DNA of 50,018 bases from Gemmatimonadaceae bacterium (GTDB lineage: Bacteria > Gemmatimonadota > Gemmatimonadetes > Gemmatimonadales > Gemmatimonadaceae), in contig WYBP01000021.1 of assembly GCA_011525845.1 (NCBI GenBank), positions 1 through 50,018 on the forward strand, written 5' to 3'. Positions 36,104 through 48,812 of this stretch are shown piece after piece. The notes under the pieces were generated by a model, which saw only the letters and a program-made list of their open reading frames with translations, was not told where the DNA came from and searched no databases. How positions within the stretch are numbered: the first letter of the stretch is position 1; every line of letters starts with the position of its first letter. Both the position numbers and the translations under genes were made by a program.

Positions 36104-36529
36104 TCAGCACCGCCTGTAGACGGTCCACGACAACGGATTCCTCGGACGCACATCGCACCATTCGACGCGCCCCCGTCGCAGAAAGAAGTGGCTGCGACAG
36201 CCTGTCCGGCGCCAGACCGATGGCGTCAGCGACACGGTGCCGCCGGCGTGCAGGGTCAGCCGCCAGCGCGGACGTCCGTTGGGATGAAGGCTGATCTGCA
36301 GCAGTTCGCCGCAGCCGCAGGGGCAGATCAGCGCGGCAAACCAGACATGCACACCCTCGCCCACGAGGTACACCGTCCACGGGTCGAGGAAGTCCGGCAA
36401 CTCCGCCGCGAAGCGCGTCGCTCGCGCGGGCGCCGCGCGCAGGATGCGGGCCCTCCACCACAGTTCGACGGCGAACCGCGCCGCGCACAGAATGCTGTCG
36501 GCCGGGCGACGCCAACCGACACGCGTCAC
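36104..36529 (-). CDS. DUF6527-family protein, last gene of the ubiquitin-like operon
   Basis: A 141-residue protein starting at GTG 36529, which overlaps the stop of the E1 gene as GTGA. The C-terminal ~85 residues match what I know as DUF6527: LPDFLDPWTVYLVGEGVHVWFAALICPCGCGE, then LHPNGRPRWRLTLHAGGTVSLTPSVWR and a final Cys in RVEWC. The CPCGC cluster with the late Cys could bind a metal. DUF6527 proteins are often encoded beside bacterial E1/E2/multiubiquitin genes; their biochemical role is not known to me. It could be a target-recognition or ligase-like accessory factor, which is speculation. Confidence 0.75.
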   Translation of the reverse strand: MTRVGWRRPADSILCAARFAVELWWRARILRAAPARATRFAAELPDFLDPWTVYLVGEGVHVWFAALICPCGCGELLQISLHPNGRPRWRLTLHAGGTVSLTPSVWRRTGCRSHFFLRRGRVEWCDVRPRNPLSWTVYRRC

Positions 36530-38049
36530 GGGGCGGTGCCCGGCTCCGTCAGCTCGGGCATGTTGAGCAGCGGACGAAGGTCTCCTCTCCCTGCGAGCAG
36601 CGAGAGTGCGGGGCACGGCATGCCATCGCTGTCAATCAGCAGCCGGGCCTGCGTGAGGCTCATGCTGAAGCTCGCGAAGTCGCCGTTACCATCATCCCGG
36701 AAGCCGTGGAGCCGCGCGAGGAGCTCGATGACTGCGAGGCTGGCGTAGAGGGTGTTCACGCTGATGACCGCGGGCCGGTCCTCCTGCACGCCGGAGATGT
36801 ACTTCTCGCTCCGCAGCGCTTCGTACTGTGCGGGGTCCTCCCGGCGCGTGGCCGCGGCGCGCACGTCCTCGGCGGTGTAGGCGCTCCGGCTGAGCAGACT
36901 GGAGCCGTCGGGCTGGAGGTAATGCACGGTGCCGCAGATCTGGTCCACGCTTCCCAGTCCATCCGCGACGAGGCGAACGCCCACGTCGAAGTACGGCACG
37001 CTGTAGAAGCAGGCCACGCGGTTCAGCAGGTCGCGTCCGTCGATCGAGTCCATGCATCCGAACACCGCGTCGCACCGTGCCACGTGACGGACCACATTCG
37101 CCGAGAAGAGGTCCTTCGCCATCGGTTTGACGATCGTGCCGAGGCCCATCGCCTTCACGGCGCCCGCGAGCACGTCGACCTTGTACTCCCCCGCGACCGC
37201 GTCGGCCATCGTCGCGTTGTAGATGCGATTCAGGTTCTTCTCCTCGACGCGGTCGGGGTCGACCAGGACGAGGACGCCGACACCGAGCCGTGCCAGCATC
37301 TCGATCGTCGGGCTCCCGGTGCCCGAGCAGCCGACGACGGCGACCGTCATTCGGGAGAGCAGCGTCGTCGTACCGGCGCCGAGCGCCTGCGCCGTGCGCC
37401 GCGCGAACTCGGAGACGCTGTGGCGGTCCTTGAACGGGCCGGTACCTTTGGACTGCGCGTTCGACTCCACGACCTCGGTCCACCGCCAGCTCCTGATCTC
37501 CTCTCCGACGACCGCGACCTTCGGGACCGGGGCCGTCGCGCCATCGGGGCTGACTGCCCGGGCGAAGATCCGGCCCTCCGGCAGCATGACCGCGCTGGTG
37601 TGCGGTCGGTCGTTGTCGAGCCACGCGCCGACGGCGGCGAACAGCTCGTGATCCGCGCGGTCATCCACACTCGAGAACCGGCGAAGTCCACCGGGATGAC
37701 TGTGGATCTTGAGAAGGCTCAGGCCACTCTTCTGTGCCAGATCGAGCAGCGCTGGCAGGGCGTCGGTCGGCCAGCGCACGCGCTCGGGCGTCCGCTCGAG
37801 GCAGCGCTCGTGCGGCACCAGCTCGATCTTGTAGATCGTGAGGATCTCGCCGTCTTCGCCATCAGATTCCGGGGCGGCCGGAGGCGCCGCGAGTCGGCCG
37901 CAAAGCGCGAGGGCAATCGACTCGCGTCCGTCTCCGGGGAAGAGGTGCTGGCGGAGGTGCGCGTGCTGCCTGCCCGTCATCCTGAGCGCGGCGAACGGGC
38001 GGGGCGAACGGTAGGCATCCACCGCGGCGATGGCAGTTGTCTCGGTCAT
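36526..38049 (-). CDS. JAB deubiquitinase-like domain fused to E1-like (ThiF) adenylyltransferase
   Basis: A 507-residue fusion. Residues ~20-190 are a JAB/MPN metallopeptidase-like domain with the JAMM motif HSHPGGLRRFSSVDD (His116, His118, Ser126, Asp129), which in eukaryotes and bacteria trims ubiquitin-like tails or removes conjugates. Residues ~230-480 are an E1/ThiF domain: VVGCSGTGSPTIEMLARLGVG with Gly240, LVDPDRVEEKNLNRIYNAT, and DAVFGCMDSIDGRDLLNRVA. In the crossover-loop region where MoeB/ThiF enzymes have Cys the sequence is LQPDGSSLLSRSAY, Ser-rich without Cys. It starts one base after the E2-like stop, behind GGAGGGG. Confidence 0.9.
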   Translation of the reverse strand: MTETTAIAAVDAYRSPRPFAALRMTGRQHAHLRQHLFPGDGRESIALALCGRLAAPPAAPESDGEDGEILTIYKIELVPHERCLERTPERVRWPTDALPALLDLAQKSGLSLLKIHSHPGGLRRFSSVDDRADHELFAAVGAWLDNDRPHTSAVMLPEGRIFARAVSPDGATAPVPKVAVVGEEIRSWRWTEVVESNAQSKGTGPFKDRHSVSEFARRTAQALGAGTTTLLSRMTVAVVGCSGTGSPTIEMLARLGVGVLVLVDPDRVEEKNLNRIYNATMADAVAGEYKVDVLAGAVKAMGLGTIVKPMAKDLFSANVVRHVARCDAVFGCMDSIDGRDLLNRVACFYSVPYFDVGVRLVADGLGSVDQICGTVHYLQPDGSSLLSRSAYTAEDVRAAATRREDPAQYEALRSEKYISGVQEDRPAVISVNTLYASLAVIELLARLHGFRDDGNGDFASFSMSLTQARLLIDSDGMPCPALSLLAGRGDLRPLLNMPELTEPGTAP

Positions 38050-38479: not shown

Positions 38480-38832
38480 CACTGGCTCCGGCCGCACGCG
38501 TCGGCCCGCGCTAGATCCGTGGCCCCCTCGGTCTGGTCGAGGGGCAGGGTCATGAACCGCTCGACGCCCGTCGTCGTCAGATCGACCACCTGATTCAGCT
38601 CGATCTTCGCGGTGCGGCCGCCGATCAGCTTCTGATCGAGCCGGTAGCGCTCCGGCGGTGTCTTCCCGGCCCGCGTGAGGATCTCGCGGCCCGTGATCGT
38701 GGAGGTCTCGACCACGATGTGGGTCTTATCCACGCGGATCCGGTACTGCTGTCCCGCCGGCGGGGTGCGCCCCGACTTGGCGTAGGTCTCGACGTCGATG
38801 GTTTCGACGCCCGCGTTCATGTGCGTGTCCAT
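38476..38832 (-). CDS. Multiubiquitin-domain protein (ubiquitin-like modifier)
   Basis: A 118-residue protein with one ubiquitin-like beta-grasp domain: YRIRVDKTHIVVETSTITGREIL, RAGKTPPERYRLDQKL and VDLTTTGVERFMTLP, matching the Multiubiquitin (PF14452-type) family. Only one domain copy is present although the family name refers to tandem copies. After the domain there is a 25-residue tail without a Gly-Gly end, which the JAB domain downstream may process. An in-frame ATG at 38820 is an alternative start. It is the first gene of the operon, and a GTAACGC-type motif lies 65 bases upstream. Confidence 0.85.
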   Translation of the reverse strand: MDTHMNAGVETIDVETYAKSGRTPPAGQQYRIRVDKTHIVVETSTITGREILTRAGKTPPERYRLDQKLIGGRTAKIELNQVVDLTTTGVERFMTLPLDQTEGATDLARADACGRSQW

Positions 38833-38896
38833 CTCTCGATACTCCGGTCTAGGGTGGTAGCGGGCGAAGGTTGTGGTCGCCCTGTCTCTCGCCGTA

Positions 38897-38916
38897 CCAT
38901 TCCGGAATGCGTTACA
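38897..38916 (-). promoter_or_regulatory. GTAACGC-type motif (copy D) upstream of the ubiquitin-like operon
   Basis: On the minus strand the sequence is TGTAACGCATTCCGGAATGG. It matches the copies before the sigma and HTH genes at TGTAACGC and at the C-GAA/GAATGG part with the same spacing. It lies 65 bases before the multiubiquitin ATG. The centre CATTCCGGAATG is a perfect palindrome. Confidence 0.55.
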
Positions 38917-38964
38917 GCACGGGGGCTCCGACTCCCGCACCCAGCGGGACCTGGCGCATCGGGC

Positions 38965-38984
38965 TGTGACGCCCAACCGAATGG
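38965..38984 (+). promoter_or_regulatory. GTAACGC-type motif (copy A) upstream of the sigma gene
   Basis: TGTGACGCCCAACCGAATGG. One base departs from GTAAC. It overlaps an inverted repeat CCCAACC-GAAT-GGTTGGG (38972-38989), with a 7-bp perfect stem, so it could also be a protein-binding palindrome or RNA hairpin. Confidence 0.5.
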
Positions 38985-39023
38985 TTGGGTGGACCCCCGA
39001 CAGGCGCCTCGGTGGCCGGGGGC

Positions 39024-39043
39024 TGTAACGCCTCGGCGAATGT
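39024..39043 (+). promoter_or_regulatory. GTAACGC-type motif (copy B) upstream of the sigma gene
   Basis: TGTAACGCCTCGGCGAATGT, 80 bases before the sigma-factor ATG and 40 bases after copy A. Same orientation as the gene it precedes. Confidence 0.55.
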
Positions 39044-39122
39044 GACAGTGTCCGACGCCACCGCGCCGCCGAGGCCCGGTCAGGCGCACCCAAAACCGTG
39101 CAAGACATACGAGCGCACATGA

Positions 39123-39809
39123 ATGTGGTCCCCAACGCCACCGCCTGAGTTCTTCGATCTGGTCCAGCAGGGCGACCGCCGATCGACTGCCGAGTTCGTG
39201 GACCGGTACACGCCGGTCGCGCTGGCGTATCTGCGGGTGAGCTTCGCGCGCATGAGCGAAGCGGAGCACGACGAGCTCGTGCAGGACGTTCTCCTCGAGG
39301 TCATCTCCAATCTCCGGAAGTACGACCGCACGAGGCCATTCAAGGCTTGGTTTCTCACGATCACCAAGCGGCGGGCGCTCGATTTCATGGAGCGCCACGC
39401 TGGGGAGTGGGTGCAGGGAGAGTCTGGTCTGGTCCCCACACACGTCTCCTACGAAGCGGCGATGGACGAGGATGGGCCCGAGGCGCTGCAAACGCAGATC
39501 CGAGAGGCAACAGCTACAGACGCGGCCTTGGGTGTTGACGCGGGGGGAGAGGAGGGTGGGGCCGATGCGCAAGCGCCGGTCGGCTCGCTGACCTCACGGG
39601 TGCCCGCGCTGCTTGACTGGATGGCATCGCTGAGCCCGGAGGATCGCGTGCTGCTGGATCGCTACAGGCTCGTTGCGTCGTGGGAGGAGGTAGCGGAGCG
39701 GCTTACCCGCCTCGGCGACCCCGTGTCGCCCGGAACCGCGAGGGTTCGGGGGCACCGCCTAATCGCGCGCGCCAAGAGGGTCTTGGCCGGCGGCTCAGGC
39801 GACGGCTGA
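39123..39809 (+). CDS. ECF-type RNA polymerase sigma factor
   Basis: A 228-residue sigma-70-family protein. Region 2 spans about residues 20-100: VDRYTPVALAYLRVSF, EHDELVQDVLLEVISNLRKYDRTRPFKAWFLTITKRRALDFM. An acidic variable linker (~110-150) follows, then region 4 (~160-225): LSPEDRVLLDRYRLVASWEEVAERLTRLG and TARVRGHRLIARAKRVL. No obvious anti-sigma gene of the usual membrane type follows; the next gene is a soluble HTH protein. Because two copies of the GTAACGC motif precede it, it may transcribe its own gene and the flanking operons. Confidence 0.85.
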   Translation: MWSPTPPPEFFDLVQQGDRRSTAEFVDRYTPVALAYLRVSFARMSEAEHDELVQDVLLEVISNLRKYDRTRPFKAWFLTITKRRALDFMERHAGEWVQGESGLVPTHVSYEAAMDEDGPEALQTQIREATATDAALGVDAGGEEGGADAQAPVGSLTSRVPALLDWMASLSPEDRVLLDRYRLVASWEEVAERLTRLGDPVSPGTARVRGHRLIARAKRVLAGGSGDG

Positions 39810-39823
39810 GTGGGACGTCGGGG

Positions 39824-39843
39824 CGTAACGCCCACCCGAACGC
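39824..39843 (+). promoter_or_regulatory. GTAACGC-type motif (copy C) upstream of the HTH gene
   Basis: CGTAACGCCCACCCGAACGC, between the sigma gene stop and the HTH gene ATG (85 bases before it). A second partial block, CAAACGAATAGC, follows 28 bases downstream. Confidence 0.5.
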
Positions 39844-39927: not shown

Positions 39928-40728
39928 ATGATGAAGGATCGGAAGGACCCCGGGACGGGGGAGAAGCAGGACGAGAGGGCCGAGCAGGTCGCCCACAGGG
40001 CCGAGGCATCCGTCAACGACGCGGACAACGCCGGGGCGCACGACGCCGGGAGTCGGAGCGACACAGATCGTAGGGTCGAGGGGCTGCTTCGGATCATCGG
40101 GTTGCAAGACGGCAACGATCGTGAGCTAACGGAAGAGGAGGCAGAGCTGATCTTTGACCTCGCGGAGGCGGAACCAGTCTCCGAGGAGCGGCTCGCCCGC
40201 ATCCGAGAGGGCGTCCTCCGGCGGCGGTTCGGGACGACGCCGGTTGCAACTGAATCCTCGACCGAGGCATCGCCTGTCGTCGCGTCGTCTATCGCCGAGG
40301 CGCAGGTGGCTAGCGTGAAGGCTCCGTCTGAGCCCGCGTCGGTGCGGCCGAGCCTCGTGCGCCACTGCAGTTCGCTCAATCTCAGGCTAGCCGACGTCGC
40401 CACGGAGCTGCACTTAGACTCGCAGACGCTCTTCGAGCTGGATCGCGGTGCCGCCCGAGAGGTGCCACGGGCGCTGATCGCTGCGGCTGCCGCGACGCTC
40501 AGGATAGACCGTGGTGAAGTGGCGCGCTGCCTGGCCCCGGGTCATAGAGACGTGCCGCGGATGGCCGCACATGGCCGACGTGGGGCCAAAGTCGCCGAGC
40601 CAGCCACTCTACGCGACTTCCTCGAGATCATCGAGGCCAGCAAGCTGGGTGAAGAAGTCAAGCGGCACTGGCGTCAGGTGGTCGCCGCCGAGAGTGAAAG
40701 CATCGCACAAGCGCCCGAGCAGTCCTGA
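39928..40728 (+). CDS. Putative XRE-like HTH regulatory protein
   Basis: A 266-residue soluble protein. Residues 1-50 are charged and disordered-looking. Residues ~60-95 form an acidic helical segment (GLQDGNDRELTEEEAELIFDLAEAEPVSEERLARIREGVL). Residues ~145-205 resemble a Cro/C1-type helix-turn-helix: CSSLNLRLADVATELHLDSQTLFELDRG, AREVPRALIAAAAATLRIDR. The C-terminal ~50 residues are helical. No family is recognised with certainty. It sits between the sigma gene and the ImmA-helicase gene, so it could be an anti-sigma-like or ImmR-like repressor whose level is controlled by the adjacent metallopeptidase domain. Confidence 0.6.
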   Translation: MMKDRKDPGTGEKQDERAEQVAHRAEASVNDADNAGAHDAGSRSDTDRRVEGLLRIIGLQDGNDRELTEEEAELIFDLAEAEPVSEERLARIREGVLRRRFGTTPVATESSTEASPVVASSIAEAQVASVKAPSEPASVRPSLVRHCSSLNLRLADVATELHLDSQTLFELDRGAAREVPRALIAAAAATLRIDRGEVARCLAPGHRDVPRMAAHGRRGAKVAEPATLRDFLEIIEASKLGEEVKRHWRQVVAAESESIAQAPEQS

Positions 40729-40753: not shown

Positions 40754-43700
40754 GTGAGCTCCGTTCTTCATACTCCCGCCGCCATTCGAGCAGCTGCTCG
40801 TCGCGCCCGCGCTGCCGCGACCGCTCGGGTTGGTGTCGGCAAGGGGGCTGAGTCGCTCGACGCCGTCATCGAAGCCGCGATTGAGCTGGCCGACCTCAAT
40901 GTCATCTCGTGCGCGCCGGGGTCGGACCTCCTGCAAGGTGCTCGTGGCAGGTTCGATGGTCTCCGGCGCGTCATTGTCCTCGACGAGACCCTCACCGACG
41001 AGGAGCGACGCTTCACACTCGCTCATGAGCTCGGGCACACGATGCTCGACCTCATCGACCCTGAATGCGGTGGGGTGGATCTAAACGGGCCGATCCTCGA
41101 CGTCTTTCCACTCGGCGAGCAGTACGTCACTGGCTACGGTCCGCGACAGCAGGTGGAGATCAACGCCAGCCTGTTCGCTGCGGAGTTCGTGTCCCCACTT
41201 GAGCTGGTCCGTTCGGAGTTCCTGAGTGGGCGATCGGCCTCGGACATCGCTGAGGCGCTAGGCGTCTCGACATCGGTAATCTACGGCCAGCTCACCGCCG
41301 CATTTCTCAGCGCGGAGGGCGTGCGCACAGCAACTGCGCCCGACCAACACGACAACGACGCCCCGCCGGTCGGACACGCGCCACAGTCGTTCGATCTCGA
41401 CCCCCGTCAGCAGGAAGCTCGGGATGCGAATCCCGGACCGACTGCGGTCTCGGCGGGTCCAGGCACCGGCAAGACGCGGACGCTGACCGAGCGCGTGGTG
41501 CACCTGATCCGAAACCGACAGGCGCTACCCGAGGGCATCCTCTGCCTGACCTTCTCGAACATGGCGGCCGCCGAGCTTCGTGAGCGCTGCGAGCGCGCGC
41601 TGGGGCCAGCTGCGCGTCAGGTTCGGGTGCAGACCTTCCACGCGTTCGGGCTGGATCGGCTCCGCGACTACCCAGACCAGGCCGGCGTTCGCAACGATGT
41701 GACACTGCTTGATCGGCTCGACGCCGAGGATCTGCTCGACCGACATCTCACGCAGCTCAAACTCGTCGAGTACCGCCACATCGGCGACCCCGGTTTCTAT
41801 CTTCCATCGATCCTCGACGCGATCTCCGCGGCGAAGGACGAGATGGTGGGCCCGGATCGCTACATGGAGCTCGCGCGCGCCACTGCCGCGTCCGCGCAGA
41901 GTGGCGATGACAAGGCCCAGAAGGCGGCGCGCCGGCATGTGGAGGTGGCACACGTCTACGCCAAGTACGAGACCCTCCTGCAGCAGCACGGCGCTGTAGA
42001 CTTCGGGGACCTAATCTATCGCGTGGTGCGCCTGTTCGAGTCTCATCCGGAGGTGGCCACCGAGGTCTCCGACGGCTACCCGCAGATCCTGGTCGACGAG
42101 TATCAGGACGTGAACCGCGCGTCGGCCCGGCTGCTCCAGCTGCTTCGTCCGAGTGGCCAAGGGCTCTGGGTCGTCGGCGACGTCCGGCAGGCCATCTACG
42201 CCTTTCGTGGAGCGTCGGCGCGAAACCTCTCCGACTTCGCCCAGGACTTCCCCGCTGCCGGGGAGCCGGTACCGCTCGTACGGAACTACCGATCGGCGCC
42301 GGAACTGCTTCGACTCTTCAGTTCCGCAGCGAAGGAGATGCGGGGCGCGGAGAGTTTCTCCGCTTGGGAAGCAAGTCGCTCAGGGGCTACAGGCCGCGCG
42401 GTCTTCGGCACCGCCGACGACGAGGAGGCAGAACTCTCGGCGATCGTGGATTGGATCAACCACTCGGTCGCGGCAGGGCGACCGTTTGGTGCGCACGCCG
42501 TGCTCTGTCACCGGAATGCGGATGTGCCGCTCGTCGCGCGCGCGCTTGAGCAGCGCGGCGTCCCGGTTGCGAACTTCGGCGACTTCTTTGAACGCGACGA
42601 GGTACTCGACCTGCTCTCGCTCCTCTCGTACGTCGTCGAGTGGGGAGCGACCGCACTTCCGCGCGTTCGTACGTGCGGTCCGCACACCCTTAGCGACGCC
42701 GACTTTCAGGCGCTCCTCGCCGCAGCGCTTCGCGCCCACGGCGGGCTCCCCGCCGTCCTGAACGCCGCGACTCCACCCGACGGCATGACGGAGGACGCGT
42801 TTCGCCGTTCATCGACCGATTGGCGCATGCTCTCGAGCTTCGCGTGTCGCCACGAGGTGTGGTCGTTCTTTGCGGGCTACCTGTTCGACGACGGGCGCTT
42901 CCTCCGCCACATCGTCGCGACGGATACGGCCCACGCTCGCGCACAGCAGCTCGCCATCGGGCAGCTTCTGCTCATGGCGCGGGCATTTGATGCACGAGAG
43001 CAGAAGGTCGTTCCTGCGATGGAGGTCGGGGGAGCGACGGCAGACGCCGTGGACTTCCTGAGGAGCGAGTCACAAGTTGCCAATAGCCTCGCGCGTAAGC
43101 GATCCTTCCTCAGCTTCATGCGCCGGCTCTGGGCAGCGCGTGATCGCCGCGTGCCGGTGCCGGCCAGCGCACTCGACGCGGTGCACGTCGGCACCGTGCA
43201 TGGCGCGAAGGGGCTCGAGTTTCCCGTTGTGTTCCTCCCCTTCCTGGTCGAGGGTCGATTCCCCTTCAAGGCGCCGCACGATCACGCCCCTCCCCCGTCA
43301 GGGATGCTGCCCCATGATCCGGTCGCGGAGGACGCCGAGCTCGAGGCGTTGTTCTTCGTTGCGATGACTCGCGCTCGAGACGAACTGGTGATAAGCCACG
43401 CCATCAGCTACACGGGCAAGCCACCGAAGCTCTCGCGGCTGCTTCGACTCATCGCACCGGCCCGGGAGCAGGCATGGTTCGAGGAGCAACACTGGCCGTC
43501 ATCGACTGCGGGCGCCAGCGCGACAGAGCCGGCGAGCGAGCCGCGTGAGGTGACTTCTCTTCGGTATAGCGAGTTCGAGACCTTCATCAAGTGCCCTCGC
43601 CGGTTCTACTACCGGCACGTGCTCAACCTGCCGGAGCCCGACAGCGGGAGCGCCTATCTCCGGTACCACAGTGTGTCTCGCGAGATGATTGAGTGGATGG

Positions 43701-44281
43701 ACGAGGCACATCGCGCTAGTGCCATGCCGAGAGAGTGGTCGGTCGTGCAGGACCATTTTTCTGAACGCTGGCAGACGCGTGGTCCTGTCGATCATGTGCA
43801 CGAGGCATTCTATCGGGAGGTGGCGATCGAGAACGTGCGCCAAGCGTGGGAGCGTCGCCTAGGAATGGCGCCGGCGGCCGAGTGGGACCAGGCTCCCATG
43901 GGGCTGGTGTCCACCGCAATCGAAGGCGTGACCATAAGCATCCCGGTGAGCATCAGTCGGGACGAGGGCGGTGTCGTGCGCCTCGGACATGGGTACTTCC
44001 GACCCCGGAAGGCGACGACGGATCACCTTGAGCATCGTTTCGCGCTGCTTAGACATGCAACGGCGGCCGCCACCCCAGGGCGCACCGTTCAGGTAGAGGC
44101 GCACTACCCGGAAGAGGTGGTGGCGCTGAACGCGCTCCGAAGGGACGCGGAGCAGCGGCGGATCGACGACGTGCGTGAGGCGGTCCAGAGTATCCGCGCC
44201 GGCCGGTTCCCAGCCGAGCCGAGTGAGGACCGCGACCGGGAGTGTCCTCGCTGCCCGTACGGCACCATCTGCCCGAGGTAG
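40754..44281 (+). CDS. ImmA/IrrE metallopeptidase - UvrD/Rep helicase - Fe-S PD-(D/E)XK nuclease fusion
   Basis: A 1175-residue protein with three activities in one frame. (1) Residues ~10-190: an ImmA/IrrE-type zinc peptidase with LAHELGHTMLD (His91, Glu92, His95), followed by the IrrE-like segment EINASLFAAEFVSPLELV. (2) Residues ~215-880: a superfamily 1A helicase with Walker A AGPGTGKTRT (Lys240), Walker B VDEYQDVN (Asp448, Glu449), VVGDVRQAIYAFRGA, VGTVHGAKGLEFPVV and VAMTRARDEL. (3) Residues ~935-1175: a nuclease with RYSEFETFIKCPRRFYY and a four-Cys cluster (Cys947, Cys1164, Cys1167, Cys1173) spaced as in AddB/Cas4. GTG 40754 follows the HTH gene by 25 bases; an upstream open frame overlaps that gene and is ignored. 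Confidence 0.9.
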   Translation: MSSVLHTPAAIRAAARRARAAATARVGVGKGAESLDAVIEAAIELADLNVISCAPGSDLLQGARGRFDGLRRVIVLDETLTDEERRFTLAHELGHTMLDLIDPECGGVDLNGPILDVFPLGEQYVTGYGPRQQVEINASLFAAEFVSPLELVRSEFLSGRSASDIAEALGVSTSVIYGQLTAAFLSAEGVRTATAPDQHDNDAPPVGHAPQSFDLDPRQQEARDANPGPTAVSAGPGTGKTRTLTERVVHLIRNRQALPEGILCLTFSNMAAAELRERCERALGPAARQVRVQTFHAFGLDRLRDYPDQAGVRNDVTLLDRLDAEDLLDRHLTQLKLVEYRHIGDPGFYLPSILDAISAAKDEMVGPDRYMELARATAASAQSGDDKAQKAARRHVEVAHVYAKYETLLQQHGAVDFGDLIYRVVRLFESHPEVATEVSDGYPQILVDEYQDVNRASARLLQLLRPSGQGLWVVGDVRQAIYAFRGASARNLSDFAQDFPAAGEPVPLVRNYRSAPELLRLFSSAAKEMRGAESFSAWEASRSGATGRAVFGTADDEEAELSAIVDWINHSVAAGRPFGAHAVLCHRNADVPLVARALEQRGVPVANFGDFFERDEVLDLLSLLSYVVEWGATALPRVRTCGPHTLSDADFQALLAAALRAHGGLPAVLNAATPPDGMTEDAFRRSSTDWRMLSSFACRHEVWSFFAGYLFDDGRFLRHIVATDTAHARAQQLAIGQLLLMARAFDAREQKVVPAMEVGGATADAVDFLRSESQVANSLARKRSFLSFMRRLWAARDRRVPVPASALDAVHVGTVHGAKGLEFPVVFLPFLVEGRFPFKAPHDHAPPPSGMLPHDPVAEDAELEALFFVAMTRARDELVISHAISYTGKPPKLSRLLRLIAPAREQAWFEEQHWPSSTAGASATEPASEPREVTSLRYSEFETFIKCPRRFYYRHVLNLPEPDSGSAYLRYHSVSREMIEWMDEAHRASAMPREWSVVQDHFSERWQTRGPVDHVHEAFYREVAIENVRQAWERRLGMAPAAEWDQAPMGLVSTAIEGVTISIPVSISRDEGGVVRLGHGYFRPRKATTDHLEHRFALLRHATAAATPGRTVQVEAHYPEEVVALNALRRDAEQRRIDDVREAVQSIRAGRFPAEPSEDRDRECPRCPYGTICPR

Positions 44282-44752: not shown

Positions 44753-45019
44753 ATGAAGAAAGCCCGATTCACGACGGAGCAGATCATCGCGATCCTGCAG
44801 GAGCATGCGGCCGGCGCCGCCCCCGCGGAGTTGGTGCGGCGCCACGGGATCTCGCGCCAGACGTTCTACAGCTGGAAGAAACGCTACGGCGACCTCCAGG
44901 TGAGCGACGCCAAGCGGCTCAAAGCGTTGGAGGATGAGAACGCACGGCTGAAACGGCTTGTCTCCGAGCAAGCGCTCAATCTCCAGATCCTGAAGGACGT
45001 GTTGGGAAAGCACTCGTGA
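44753..45019 (+). CDS. IS3-family transposase OrfA
   Basis: An 88-residue protein with the IS3 OrfA helix-turn-helix: MKKARFTTEQIIAILQEHAA, GISRQTFYSWKKRYGDLQVSD, followed by the leucine-zipper-like LKALEDENARLKRLVSEQAL. It binds the element ends and is needed for OrfAB formation. The stop overlaps the orfB start region (GTGA at 45016), where programmed frameshifting normally makes the full transposase. Confidence 0.95.
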   Translation: MKKARFTTEQIIAILQEHAAGAAPAELVRRHGISRQTFYSWKKRYGDLQVSDAKRLKALEDENARLKRLVSEQALNLQILKDVLGKHS

Positions 45020-45858
45020 CTACCGGCGAGCGCCGGGCGGTGGTCACCGATGTGCGGGGGCGCTACGAGATCAGTGAACGCTTTGCTTGCCGCGCGCTCG
45101 GGTTCGAGCGTTCGGTGATGCGGTTCGTGCCGCAACGACCGGTCGTGGACGCTCCGCTGCGCGAGAAGCTCTGCGCGCTGGCCGCCGAGCATCTGCGCTG
45201 GGGCATTCCGCGTCTGCACTGGCGCCTCCGACGGGACGGCTGGCTCGTGAACTACAAGCGCGTCGAGCGCGTCTATCGCCTTGAGGGACTGGCGGTCCGG
45301 CGCCACAAGCGGAAGCGGCTCGCGGTGCCGCGGGTCCCCCGTCCGATCGCCGTGAGCCCAAACGACACCTGGAGCCTCGACTTCGTCAGTGACCAGCTCA
45401 GCTCCGGGCGGCGATTCCGGTGCCTCACCCTGATCGACAGCTGCACCCGGGAGTGCCTCGCCATTTCGGTGGCGTACAGTCTGCCGAGGACCGCCGTGAT
45501 CGTGGCGCTCGACGCGATTCTCGGCGTCCGCGGGCGGCCGACGCGGTTGTCGCTCGACAATGGCAACGAGTTCCGCAGTCGCGTGTTCGACGCGTGGGCC
45601 GCTGATCGCGGCATCACCTTGCAGTTCATTCAGCCCGGCAAGCCCGAACAGAACGCGCACGTCGAGAGCTTCAACGGGACGTTCCGCGATGAATGGCTCA
45701 ACCAGCACTGGTTTCACGCGCTGCTCGATGCCCAGTTCCACATCGAGCGCTTCCGCCGCGACTTCAACAGGGCCCGTCCGCACGAGGCCTGCCGCCCCTT
45801 GACCCCGCACGAGTACGCCCAGACCTTCACCACACCACTCGCCCAGCTTTCAGCCTAG
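45016..45858 (+). CDS. IS3-family transposase OrfB (DDE integrase)
   Basis: A 280-residue rve-type DDE transposase. N-terminal ALGFERSVMRF and HLRWGIPRLHWRLRRDGWLVNYKRVERVYR are the HTH_21-like part; the catalytic core shows Asp in WSLDFVSD, Asp in LSLDNGNEF and Glu in HVESFNGTFRDEWL, with the IS3 spacing. Length is normal and no frameshift or stop interrupts it. It starts at GTG overlapping the orfA end. Confidence 0.95.
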   Translation: MTTGERRAVVTDVRGRYEISERFACRALGFERSVMRFVPQRPVVDAPLREKLCALAAEHLRWGIPRLHWRLRRDGWLVNYKRVERVYRLEGLAVRRHKRKRLAVPRVPRPIAVSPNDTWSLDFVSDQLSSGRRFRCLTLIDSCTRECLAISVAYSLPRTAVIVALDAILGVRGRPTRLSLDNGNEFRSRVFDAWAADRGITLQFIQPGKPEQNAHVESFNGTFRDEWLNQHWFHALLDAQFHIERFRRDFNRARPHEACRPLTPHEYAQTFTTPLAQLSA

Positions 45859-46010: not shown

Positions 46011-46913
46011 TCATCCGGCTCGCGACTCAGCGAGACGGGCTTTCAGGTGCGCGACCAAGACGAGGAAAGCATGGGTAGTTCGGACCAGGAAAAGCGCATC
46101 GGCGCGGGTGAACTTCACGTCGCTCGCGAAGTCGTGCACCGCAAAGCTCGACAGCTGCTTCAGTCGAGCGGCGATCCCTGAATACTCCGGCCCTCTCTTC
46201 GCGTCAGTGAGATGCGACATCAGCGTGCCCCAGTCCTTCGCCTCCGTCCCTGACCGCGACTCCTCAAGGGCCGCCTCGACTACCTTGCGGCAGGCGGCAG
46301 CCGCTGAGGCGAAGTCTCCTGCGGCGATTCGTGCCCTTGCCTCCTGAAGGTGGGTGGCCGCTCGCTGAATGTGCTCGGACGATGCGGCAGGATACCGAAT
46401 CTCGAGCAGCTCGTAGTCGGCGCCTCCACAGCCACGAAGGAACTCAAGCCAAACGTCCCTCGGAATCGCGAGCTGAATCGGGCGAATCTGCGCATGCAGC
46501 ACGGTGCTGCCGTCGTGCACGGTGGGCCACAGCGCCAGCCAGAGACGCGGAGCTTCACCGTCGCGCCTCGCTTCCAAACGCTCGAGTCGCTGGTGGTCGA
46601 AGTCGCAGGCGAGTTCTAGCTGCGCCTCGTAGCCGTCGGCGGGGAACCGGACGGGCCGGCGCTGCCCCGTCAGGCGCGCTTCGCAGACGGGGTCGCCTGC
46701 CTCATTGAGGCGAAGCTCCCCTGCAAGGTCACGAAGCTCAAATGCCTCCGTCGAGGCCTGACCTTGATACCGTGCTGGAGCACGCTGGAGCAGCACACCG
46801 ACACGCAGCAAGAGTCGCGGAAACAGCGATGCTCCTGCATACGCGGAGAGCACGCGCACCTTTCCGACCTGCGTCGAATCAATGGTTAGATCTGACTCAC
46901 CGTAGCTTGACAC
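46011..46913 (-). CDS. Unknown protein, possibly HEPN-like at the C-terminus
   Basis: About 300 residues, not recognised over the full length. The N-terminal ~180 residues look beta-rich (LTIDSTQVGKVRVLSAYAGA, STEAFELRDLAGELRLNEAG). The C-terminal ~120 residues are all-helical, with QRAATHLQEARARIAAGDFA, SAAAACRKVVEAALEE and FTRADALFLVRTTHAFLVLV, resembling HEPN-type domains in abortive-infection proteins; no clear RxxxxH is visible, so this is tentative. I chose GTG 46913 because AGAGGG lies five bases upstream and because the region further upstream belongs to an attC-like repeat; an ATG at 46967 is the longer alternative. Confidence 0.6.
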   Translation of the reverse strand: MSSYGESDLTIDSTQVGKVRVLSAYAGASLFPRLLLRVGVLLQRAPARYQGQASTEAFELRDLAGELRLNEAGDPVCEARLTGQRRPVRFPADGYEAQLELACDFDHQRLERLEARRDGEAPRLWLALWPTVHDGSTVLHAQIRPIQLAIPRDVWLEFLRGCGGADYELLEIRYPAASSEHIQRAATHLQEARARIAAGDFASAAAACRKVVEAALEESRSGTEAKDWGTLMSHLTDAKRGPEYSGIAARLKQLSSFAVHDFASDVKFTRADALFLVRTTHAFLVLVAHLKARLAESRAG

Positions 46914-46930
46914 CAGTCCCTCTGAATCTA

Positions 46931-47033
46931 GTCCGGAAGACGTCAGCTTGTGCTTCGAACACTCCATAAAAGGCGTCCGCAAAGCGGACGCTTCAATGGC
47001 GTGGCTGTCAGCCACCAAGCATCGTTAGGCGCC
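46931..47033. repeat. attC-like repeat 2
   Basis: Plus strand: starts with GACGTCAGCTTGTGCTTC (46939-46956), contains the hairpin GCGTCCGCAAAGCGGACGC (46973-46991) and GTGGCTGTCAGCCAC (47001-47015), and ends with CCACCAAGCATCGTTAGGCG, holding the R' type core GTTAGGC. Read on the minus strand the end is GCCTAAC, an R''-type core. It follows the stop of the formylglycine-generating-enzyme-like gene. Confidence 0.6.
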
Positions 47034-47117
47034 AGAGTGCTCAATCTGTCGCGGTGCCAGAACGACCCGCAATCCGATGCATCCATCGTGGAAGCTGGAA
47101 GCGATCTCGTAGCGCTT

Positions 47118-47744
47118 CTAGACGGTGCAGTGAGCGGCCCAGTTGTGGAAACAGCCGCTGCGGAGAATGTGGCGAACGTCCCGCGTGAACGTGTCTTGAC
47201 ACCACTCCCAGACCTTTCCCGACATATCGTAGAGCCCCAGCTGGTTCGGTGCCTTCTGCGCGACGGGCTGTGTGTGATCGCCGAGGCGACGATCGCACCA
47301 TGCCACGGCATCAATGTCATCGCTTCCACTGTACCGGAAGGCGTCACGCCAGTGCGGACCTCCGCGAGCAGCGTACTCCCACTCGGATTCCGTCGGTAGA
47401 CGAAATGCGAGGCGTCTCCCCGCTTGGTCGCGCAAGTCGTCGGCTGCTGTGCTCTCGTTCAGTCGATGCAGGAAGCCAGCGGGCTCAGTGAGACTGTCCG
47501 ACGAGACGTTCTCGACAGGGAGGTCTGGACCAACGTGTGCCGCGGGATTCTGTAGCCCGTCGATATGAGCCCAGAACGCCTGCGTGATCGGGGTTGCCCC
47601 GATGTAGAACTCCGGCACCGAAACGGCAATGCCCGGGGTCGACTCGCCAAAGGGATAAGGCGCGTCTGCAGTGTCGCCGACGCGCGCGAGTATAAACTGT
47701 CGCTCCTTCCTGCCGTCCATCCAACGATACGAGATAGAATCCAC
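47118..47744 (-). CDS. Formylglycine-generating-enzyme-like (SUMF1/FGE) domain protein
   Basis: A 208-residue FGE/EgtB-type C-type-lectin-like protein. The hallmark segments are EFYIGATPITQAFWAHI, AFRLPTESEWEYAARGG and LGLYDMSGKVWEWCQD, followed by RSGCFHNWA. True FGEs need a Cys pair near the C-terminus; Cys residues occur in EWCQD, SGCFHN and AHCTV, but the arrangement is not clear enough to call formylglycine formation. The protein ends early (about 60 residues shorter at the C-terminus than typical FGEs). The start is GTG 47744, with GGGGAA nine bases upstream. It is flanked by two attC-like repeats. Confidence 0.75.
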   Translation of the reverse strand: MDSISYRWMDGRKERQFILARVGDTADAPYPFGESTPGIAVSVPEFYIGATPITQAFWAHIDGLQNPAAHVGPDLPVENVSSDSLTEPAGFLHRLNESTAADDLRDQAGRRLAFRLPTESEWEYAARGGPHWRDAFRYSGSDDIDAVAWCDRRLGDHTQPVAQKAPNQLGLYDMSGKVWEWCQDTFTRDVRHILRSGCFHNWAAHCTV

Positions 47745-47774
47745 GGCGTGCTTCCCCGAAAGAACTTCGTGTGT

Positions 47775-47914
47775 GCGCCTAGCGTCAGTTTGTGCTGCGG
47801 CCGTTCCAATTTTTTGCGGCGGCGTGGCCGCCGCATACCCGCCTAAACATGGAGCGGCGGCCCCGCCGCCGCTTCCGAAGCCCGGCCGTCAGTCACCAAG
47901 CGCCGGTAGACGCC
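47775..47914. repeat. attC-like repeat 1
   Basis: Plus strand: starts with GCGCCTAGCGTCAGTTTGTG (47775-47794), contains two strong hairpins of GCGGCGG-type stems (47815-47833 and 47854-47872) and ends with GTCACCAAGCGCCGGTAGAC (47891-47910). Its end block closely resembles that of repeat 2, and its start block shares GTCAG-TTGTGCT with it. It begins right after the stop of the HNH gene. About 140 bp, within the range of long attC sites. Confidence 0.6.
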
Positions 47915-47927
47915 GATGGGCTCGCGT

Positions 47928-48812
47928 CTACTCGTTTGACTTCTCGTCGCGAGGCCAGGTTTCGAGCACCTTCTTCCGGTACCGTTCGACTCCCTCCATG
48001 TGGGCAGAACGGCGTTTCGCCAAGCGACTTGAGAAGGACCACCCAGGAATGAGCTCAGAAAGGGTCAAGTCCTCGTGTGGGTCCAAGCCGTCATGACACG
48101 TTTGACAGATCGTCAGCAGATTGGCCTCCTCCGTGAGTCCGCCCCGAGACCACATCCGTACGTGATGCAAGTGAAGCTTCACGTGAACATTGTCTGCGGG
48201 TCGCTCGCCGCAGATGCGGCAACTGTAGTGGTCACGCTTCAGGATGCTCATCCTAAGCTTTCGCGACGGTGCACGCTGCCGCTCGGCTTCCGAGATGGTT
48301 GAGAGTCCGCGAAATCCGATGGGGCCAGCAGAAACAGAGGGATGCGGTGCAAGCACGTCTGGCAACCACTGCTCCGCCAACTTGCGCTCGATCACGGCGT
48401 GGCCACCGCGCGACATGAAGATGGCCAGTCCTCGATCGTCGTTGACTACCAGACACTCCTCTCCGAGCTTCTCGTAGTTCGCCAGGAGCCTGTCAGCATG
48501 AACTATTGATGCAGCCCGCAGTTCTATGCGCCGCTCAGGGTCCTCGTAGCCTTCGAAGTGTGAATATACGCCCCACTCGACATGTCCGGCGATGGTCAAA
48601 GTCAAGGAAACGGAGTAGTACTCCCTGTCTGCGTGGACGGTGCGCAACTGTACCGCCAACGCGGCAAGGTTGCCGGCTCGGTCGCTTGTCGGTGCGCTCA
48701 ACTGAGTTCCGTCAGTGGTGGTCGTGCGTCTAGCGAGTACTGGACAGTTCTCTCTAATTGCACCAAGCACCGCAAGGGAATCTGCCGTCGCCCAATACTC
48801 ACCGGCGCTCAC
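47928..48812 (-). CDS. HNH endonuclease-domain protein
   Basis: A 294-residue protein with a C-terminal HNH motif (~residues 195-255): CRICGERPADNVHVKLHLHHVRMW, SRGGLTEEANLLTICQTCHDGLDP, with two CxxC pairs for structural zinc and the catalytic His-His. The N-terminal ~190 residues (HADREYYSVSLTLTIAGHVE, AIFMSRGGHAVIERKLAEQW) are not recognised and may sense or bind a target. HNH proteins of this type occur in restriction and defence contexts. Start GTG 48812. It is the most upstream gene of the minus-strand cassette-like series and ends just before attC-like repeat 1. Confidence 0.8.
   Translation of the reverse strand: MSAGEYWATADSLAVLGAIRENCPVLARRTTTTDGTQLSAPTSDRAGNLAALAVQLRTVHADREYYSVSLTLTIAGHVEWGVYSHFEGYEDPERRIELRAASIVHADRLLANYEKLGEECLVVNDDRGLAIFMSRGGHAVIERKLAEQWLPDVLAPHPSVSAGPIGFRGLSTISEAERQRAPSRKLRMSILKRDHYSCRICGERPADNVHVKLHLHHVRMWSRGGLTEEANLLTICQTCHDGLDPHEDLTLSELIPGWSFSSRLAKRRSAHMEGVERYRKKVLETWPRDEKSNE

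Follow-up and report, generated by a model that had tools for sequence, protein, structure and literature searches.

A peptidase-helicase fusion with a predicted dead nuclease fold, encoded beside a ubiquitin-like operon, as a candidate DNA-triggered switch

Bacterial operons for ubiquitin-like (Ubl) proteins, known as Bub operons, carry the controllers CapW, CapH+CapP or CapK+CapS, and of these CapP and CapK act on single-stranded DNA (ssDNA) (PMC13373217). In a 2026 paper on Bub controllers, 219 of 544 operons were assigned to CapW or CapH+CapP and 59 to CapK+CapS, with the rest left without assignment (PMC13373217). Peptidases of the ImmA/IrrE family cut CapH and DdrO after DNA damage (PMC13373217, PMC10904395), and PprI binds ssDNA and cuts DdrO (PMC10904395). 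Here we analyse a stretch of 50,018 nt from a Gemmatimonadaceae bacterium (GCA_011525845.1, contig WYBP01000021.1, positions 1-50,018, forward strand), referred to as the window, in which one gene (40754..44281, +) encodes a fusion of an ImmA/IrrE (M78) metallopeptidase, a UvrD/AdnB-like superfamily 1A (SF1A) helicase and a four-cysteine PD-(D/E)XK domain that is predicted to be catalytically dead and to bind an iron-sulfur (Fe-S) cluster. The gene context explains the fusion, which is the third gene of a fixed cassette (sigma70-like factor, XRE-like helix-turn-helix (HTH) protein, fusion) attached to a Bub operon. We consider it reasonably probable that the locus switches on the Bub pathway in response to DNA damage or phage DNA and is a helicase-coupled relative of CapH+CapP.

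The individual pieces are known, and so is this kind of system, an ImmA/IrrE peptidase with an HTH repressor beside an immune operon, in the form of CapH+CapP. As there, genes for an HTH regulator and an ImmA/IrrE peptidase lie beside an immune-type operon, here a Ubl operon; the peptidase profile of the fusion matches CapP, and the HTH fold of the cassette resembles CapH. The difference is that the peptidase is fused to an SF1A helicase and to an Fe-S-bearing nuclease fold predicted dead, that a sigma gene is added, and that the peptidase is not a stand-alone protein of CapP size, the 68 family loci all being fused. A CapH+CapP-like arrangement, a stand-alone XRE and M78 pair, lies upstream of the multi-ubiquitin Bub operon of locus L127 in place of the fusion cassette. 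PprI(IrrE)-DdrO of Deinococcus likewise combines an M78 peptidase with an XRE-like repressor whose cleavage is triggered by ssDNA (PMC10904395), but PprI has HTH and GAF-like domains without a helicase, and PprI-DdrO governs a genome-wide regulon whereas the motif described below occurs only at this locus. AdnAB, AddAB and RecBCD share the SF1A helicase with a C-terminal four-Cys PD-(D/E)XK domain; unlike them, the fusion lacks the catalytic residues and has an N-terminal protease, and the conserved cassette showed no partner subunit. The window has the Multi_ubiq, E2, E1, JAB and DUF6527 genes of Bub operons, although the published description includes none with a helicase or sigma factor. 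GajB of Gabija, also a UvrD-like helicase, is the top PADLOC match of the fusion but has neither peptidase nor Cys domain, and Gabija itself is ruled out by the lack of a GajA-GajB pair, the neighbours in the window and in annotated relatives being sigma, HTH and Ubl genes. We found no literature description of the helicase fusion with the dead Fe-S nuclease and the sigma gene, in a search whose coverage of the field was incomplete and which does not prove absence.

The fusion occupies a single frame of 1175 codons with zero internal stops, beginning at a GTG located 25 nt after the end of the preceding gene. Four Pfam matches, all exceeding the cut-off, follow one another from the N- to the C-terminus: Peptidase_M78 (residues 64-177, 2.5e-11), UvrD-helicase (216-500, 1.1e-64), UvrD_C (808-882, 1.6e-28) and PDDEXK_1 (1079-1174, 5.2e-12). 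An AlphaFold2 model built with 41 family members as input reached a predicted local distance difference test (pLDDT) score of 84.6 and a predicted template modelling (pTM) score of 0.86. An earlier reading made from the sequence alone had proposed this three-part architecture and a domain search to examine it; the open frame, the Pfam domain order and the model bear the architecture out. Residue conservation was counted over 62 aligned members of the 68-locus family. In the peptidase domain (PF06114; 40943..41284, +), the HExxH residues H91, E92 and H95 are kept in 61-62 of the 62, and the acidic residue E135, invariant in 62/62, is probably the third metal ligand. The peptidase profile matches the structures of CapP (7t5t, 6.3e-6), and PprI/IrrE (8slm, 2.8e-4; 3dte, 3.6e-4). 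A complete SF1A helicase spans residues ~211-920 (residues 216-882 at 41399..43399, +), with Walker A, DExQD and the remaining SF1A motifs present and conserved. The zinc peptidase and the full helicase of the sequence-only reading are confirmed. This part of the model aligns to UvrD, PcrA and Rep (Z 34-40), and the fusion model gives Z 31.7 against AdnB and Z 25-28 against AddAB, the AddAB alignments reaching into the C-terminal domain.

The further statement of that reading, that all key residues are present, fails for the nuclease. The C-terminal PD-(D/E)XK-fold domain (43592..44278, +) carries Cys947, Cys1164, Cys1167 and Cys1173 in the order C...C-x2-C-x5-C, conserved in 61 of the 62 aligned members, and alignment and fold here confirm the AddB/Cas4-like spacing that had been noticed. 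The catalytic D and K are absent. In the window the catalytic strand is GGVVRLGHGYFRPRK; the family has R-R-V-R-T-G or similar there, most relatives following [RK]-[VI]-[RK]-T-G, and none of the 62 has (D/E)xK at the expected catalytic position. The same columns of the control, locus L130, read GSVDLI...EIIDFKSEKK, with the catalytic residues intact. This control (L130:9960-12926) is a UvrD-PDDEXK protein without the peptidase, and it adjoins a Bub operon. The nuclease-domain profile had zero sequence matches in the PDB. Since all 62 aligned members lack (D/E)xK, the nuclease of the fusion is predicted to be dead, with its Fe-S ligands retained, and the C-terminal domain is predicted to be Fe-S-bearing, DNA-engaging and non-cutting. 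An active helicase-nuclease is ruled out by the family-wide loss of catalytic residues.

A scan of GTDB genomes found the same fusion at 68 loci, with identities of about 24-39%, in at least seven named phyla (Pseudomonadota, Chloroflexota, Acidobacteriota, Nitrospirota, Verrucomicrobiota, Planctomycetota and Myxococcota). Peptidase and helicase lie in one open reading frame (ORF) at 68/68 loci, and the suggestion that separate genes might have been joined by sequencing or assembly error is therefore excluded; L063 and L064 are broken ORFs whose break falls within the helicase. The census of neighbours, also proposed from the sequence, returned a fixed sigma/HTH/fusion cassette with a Ubl operon. 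Among loci with enough flank, to which the linkage counts are limited, the fusion is accompanied by the HTH gene, lying immediately upstream, at 64/65, the sigma gene at 61/65 and a Ubl operon at 57/60, and non-fused UvrD loci from the same scan, which lack the peptidase, have Ubl genes at 0/12. The Bub operon of the window, identified by Pfam, comprises genes for a ubiquitin-like protein of 118 amino acids (aa) (Multi_ubiq PF14452; 38476..38832, -, from an ATG at 38832), an E2-like protein (Prok-E2_E PF14462; 38051..38497, -), a JAB (Prok-JAB) and ThiF E1-like protein (36526..38049, -, start approximate) and a DUF6527 protein (PF20137; 36104..36616, -, start approximate). Relatives have the sigma, HTH and fusion genes in that order, followed by the Ubl genes, on one strand in most; there the fusion gene immediately precedes the Ubl gene, usually at a distance of 0-100 nt, and the six genes may therefore form one transcript. 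The Bub operon is divergent from the cassette in the window, L022, L060 and L134.

The cassette is joined to two Ubl types, class I with Multi_ubiq and DUF6527 and class II with DUF7665, JAB and ThiF. It looks modular because at least four changes of Ubl type fall on the fusion tree (a quick FastTree tree). Class II operons were found downstream of the fusion at L005, L006, L008, L009, L040 and L048, with a Ubl protein of ~165-185 aa that lacks a Pfam match and has a C-terminal RVEG, a DUF7665 protein in the E2 position, then JAB and ThiF. Among multi-ubiquitin loci the cassette is scarce, occurring in 2 of 21 genomes in the sample of the window's phylum (the window and L134, the latter being more diverged and below the cut-off of the initial phylum-sample scan) and in 1 of 12 in a second sample, the centre genome not counted.

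The gene directly upstream of the fusion (39928..40728, +) encodes the XRE-like HTH protein, the predicted peptidase substrate. It has no useful Pfam match, and its identity rests on position, a family hidden Markov model (HMM), which the window protein matches at 3.6e-8, and a structure model. The model contains a well-predicted domain of five helices (residues 143-202) and, towards the C-terminus, a helical hairpin, and the linker joining the two includes a conserved K-P motif; a conserved helical N-terminal part is present besides the HTH. The HTH domain resembles the N-domain of CapH (7t5u), DdrO (6rnz and 6jq1), SinR and the 434 repressor (Foldseek probability ~0.9-1.0, E 0.2-1.3). The first gene of the cassette (39123..39809, +) encodes a sigma70/ECF-like sigma factor in which region 2 was detected. 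Single-sequence searches with the HTH and sigma proteins of the window matched zero relatives.

A control region of 290 bp (38833..39122) separates the cassette from the divergent Bub operon. Motif search located three copies of a 17-bp element, TTC-N7-CGTYACA, within it (38900..38916, +; 38965..38981, -; 39024..39040, -), and these are the only copies in the whole 3.58-Mb genome, in which the reversed control pattern occurs once. A fourth, weaker and partial site, TTC-N7-CGTTAC, lies between the sigma and HTH genes (39825..39840, -), and alternative spacings of the two half-sites were not found in the control region of the window. The same place in the related locus L134 (L134:6965-7540) holds seven copies of the 16-bp core TTC-N7-CGTTAC, four of them spaced 43-44 bp apart; scattered matches to the core also occur outside the control region in that genome. 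When 64 regions upstream of the sigma gene were searched blindly for repeated sites, L134 and L006 alone showed a clear excess; the excess was marginal in L019 and absent by this test in the window, so that for the window the motif claim rests on the genome count. The four TGATTGACG-like sites upstream of the sigma gene in L006, more than in shuffled sequence, are perhaps the operator of that branch. The shared motif ties one putative DNA-binding factor to both divergent operons.

These features suggest how the switch could work. At rest, the HTH protein would repress the divergent promoters and perhaps also hold the sigma factor. The trigger would be ssDNA, or broken or invading DNA, onto which the helicase and the Fe-S domain would load, and ATP-driven engagement of this DNA would switch on the N-terminal ImmA/IrrE peptidase. 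The peptidase would then cut the HTH protein, the probable site being the conserved linker that separates the HTH from the C-terminal helices; with repression lifted, the sigma factor would be freed or made and the Ubl/E2/E1/JAB/DUF6527 operon expressed. The fusion would thus stand in for CapP of the CapH+CapP pair, and its additional motor would serve as the sensor. We infer the DNA trigger, the HTH substrate, sigma release, Bub induction and the direction of control from the protein families, the fixed linkage and the motif; the support drawn from sequence comprises the domains, the conserved and lost active sites, the fixed cassette, its two Ubl operon types and the motif in the control region. 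The idea put forward in the sequence-only reading, of a sensor that links engagement of DNA to the freeing of a regulator, fits well with the conserved upstream HTH and sigma genes and the probable Ubl target, all of which lie outside the coordinates it covered, but its helicase-nuclease component falls with the active site lost throughout the family. A bolder version, in which the SF1A motor with a dead nuclease and Fe-S clamp senses DNA and powers a DNA-translocation-driven protease that frees a dedicated sigma factor for Ubl modification, is tentative and in our view doubtful.

Several points weigh against the proposed switch. The motif recurs clearly in L134 and not in other loci, the Foldseek E-values for the HTH protein (0.2-1.3) are weak, and sigma identity is weak in many relatives, where region 4 only, or none, was found. 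Three flanked fusion loci (L007, L056 and L065) have no recognised Ubl operon, and phage protection by Bub itself has not been shown (PMC13373217). The chief competing explanation places the fusion within the Ubl pathway, as an effector, DNA sensor or conjugation target and not as a transcriptional controller, its helicase finding foreign DNA and its peptidase cutting a cell or phage protein. The close same-strand position upstream of the Ubl gene in most relatives and the intact helicase motifs would suit such a role, which we nevertheless hold to be unlikely: sigma and HTH genes are linked to the fusion as tightly as the Ubl genes, its nuclease fold is predicted dead, those ImmA/IrrE peptidases whose function is known cleave HTH regulators, and the cassette behaves as a module that joins either Ubl type and is divergent from Bub at the four loci named above.

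Another alternative keeps the switch but makes the HTH protein chiefly an anti-sigma factor, its cleavage freeing sigma and its DNA binding being minor. The sigma gene nearly always adjoins the HTH gene and the HTH protein has its conserved helical N-terminal part, as this would suggest, but the HTH fold is among the best-predicted parts of the protein model (pLDDT 93-98) and the fixed spacing and 43-44 bp periodicity of the motif in L134 look like an operator array, making this version quite improbable. We give very little credence to a toxin-antitoxin-like unit with a killing peptidase and an HTH antitoxin, which would account for adjacent HTH and peptidase genes, as in such pairs, but leaves the 1175-aa motor fusion, the sigma gene and the Ubl operon without explanation. 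UvrD-like helicases are common and the locus of the window lies beside an IS3 element, yet it is scarcely credible that the peptidase-helicase is a repair helicase with a fortuitous place at this locus, since a chance neighbour is contradicted by the linkage of 57/60 and 64/65 over many phyla and also on plasmids.

The six genes keep the same order in finished records of Acinetobacter plasmids and of one E. coli chromosome, where they bear only generic names. Full or partial relatives of the fusion occur in 92 plasmid records, 45 of them from Acinetobacter. Two such Acinetobacter plasmids (L151 and L152) carry the locus near insertion sequence (IS) elements, one beside mercury resistance genes, and among 5426 E. 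coli genomes one, CP61_Sichuan (L153), has the cassette and Ubl operon, flanked on its chromosome by IS1- and IS4-like elements. In the window, an IS3-type transposase pair (44753-45858) directly downstream of the fusion marks an edge of the locus; beyond it (46011-48812, -) are an FGE-sulfatase-like gene, an HNH endonuclease gene and a gene for a 335-aa protein without Pfam match.

The cassette represents a further candidate Bub controller, distributed over many phyla and also present on Acinetobacter plasmids. As a probable substrate, a target operon and a DNA motif are defined, each step is directly testable. If the proposed switch is correct, ssDNA-sensing proteolysis would extend to a motor-driven form, and a nuclease fold would have been retained as a sensor after loss of catalysis. 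If the protease is in fact driven by translocation, bacteria would have a DNA-damage signal of a new, motor-driven class.
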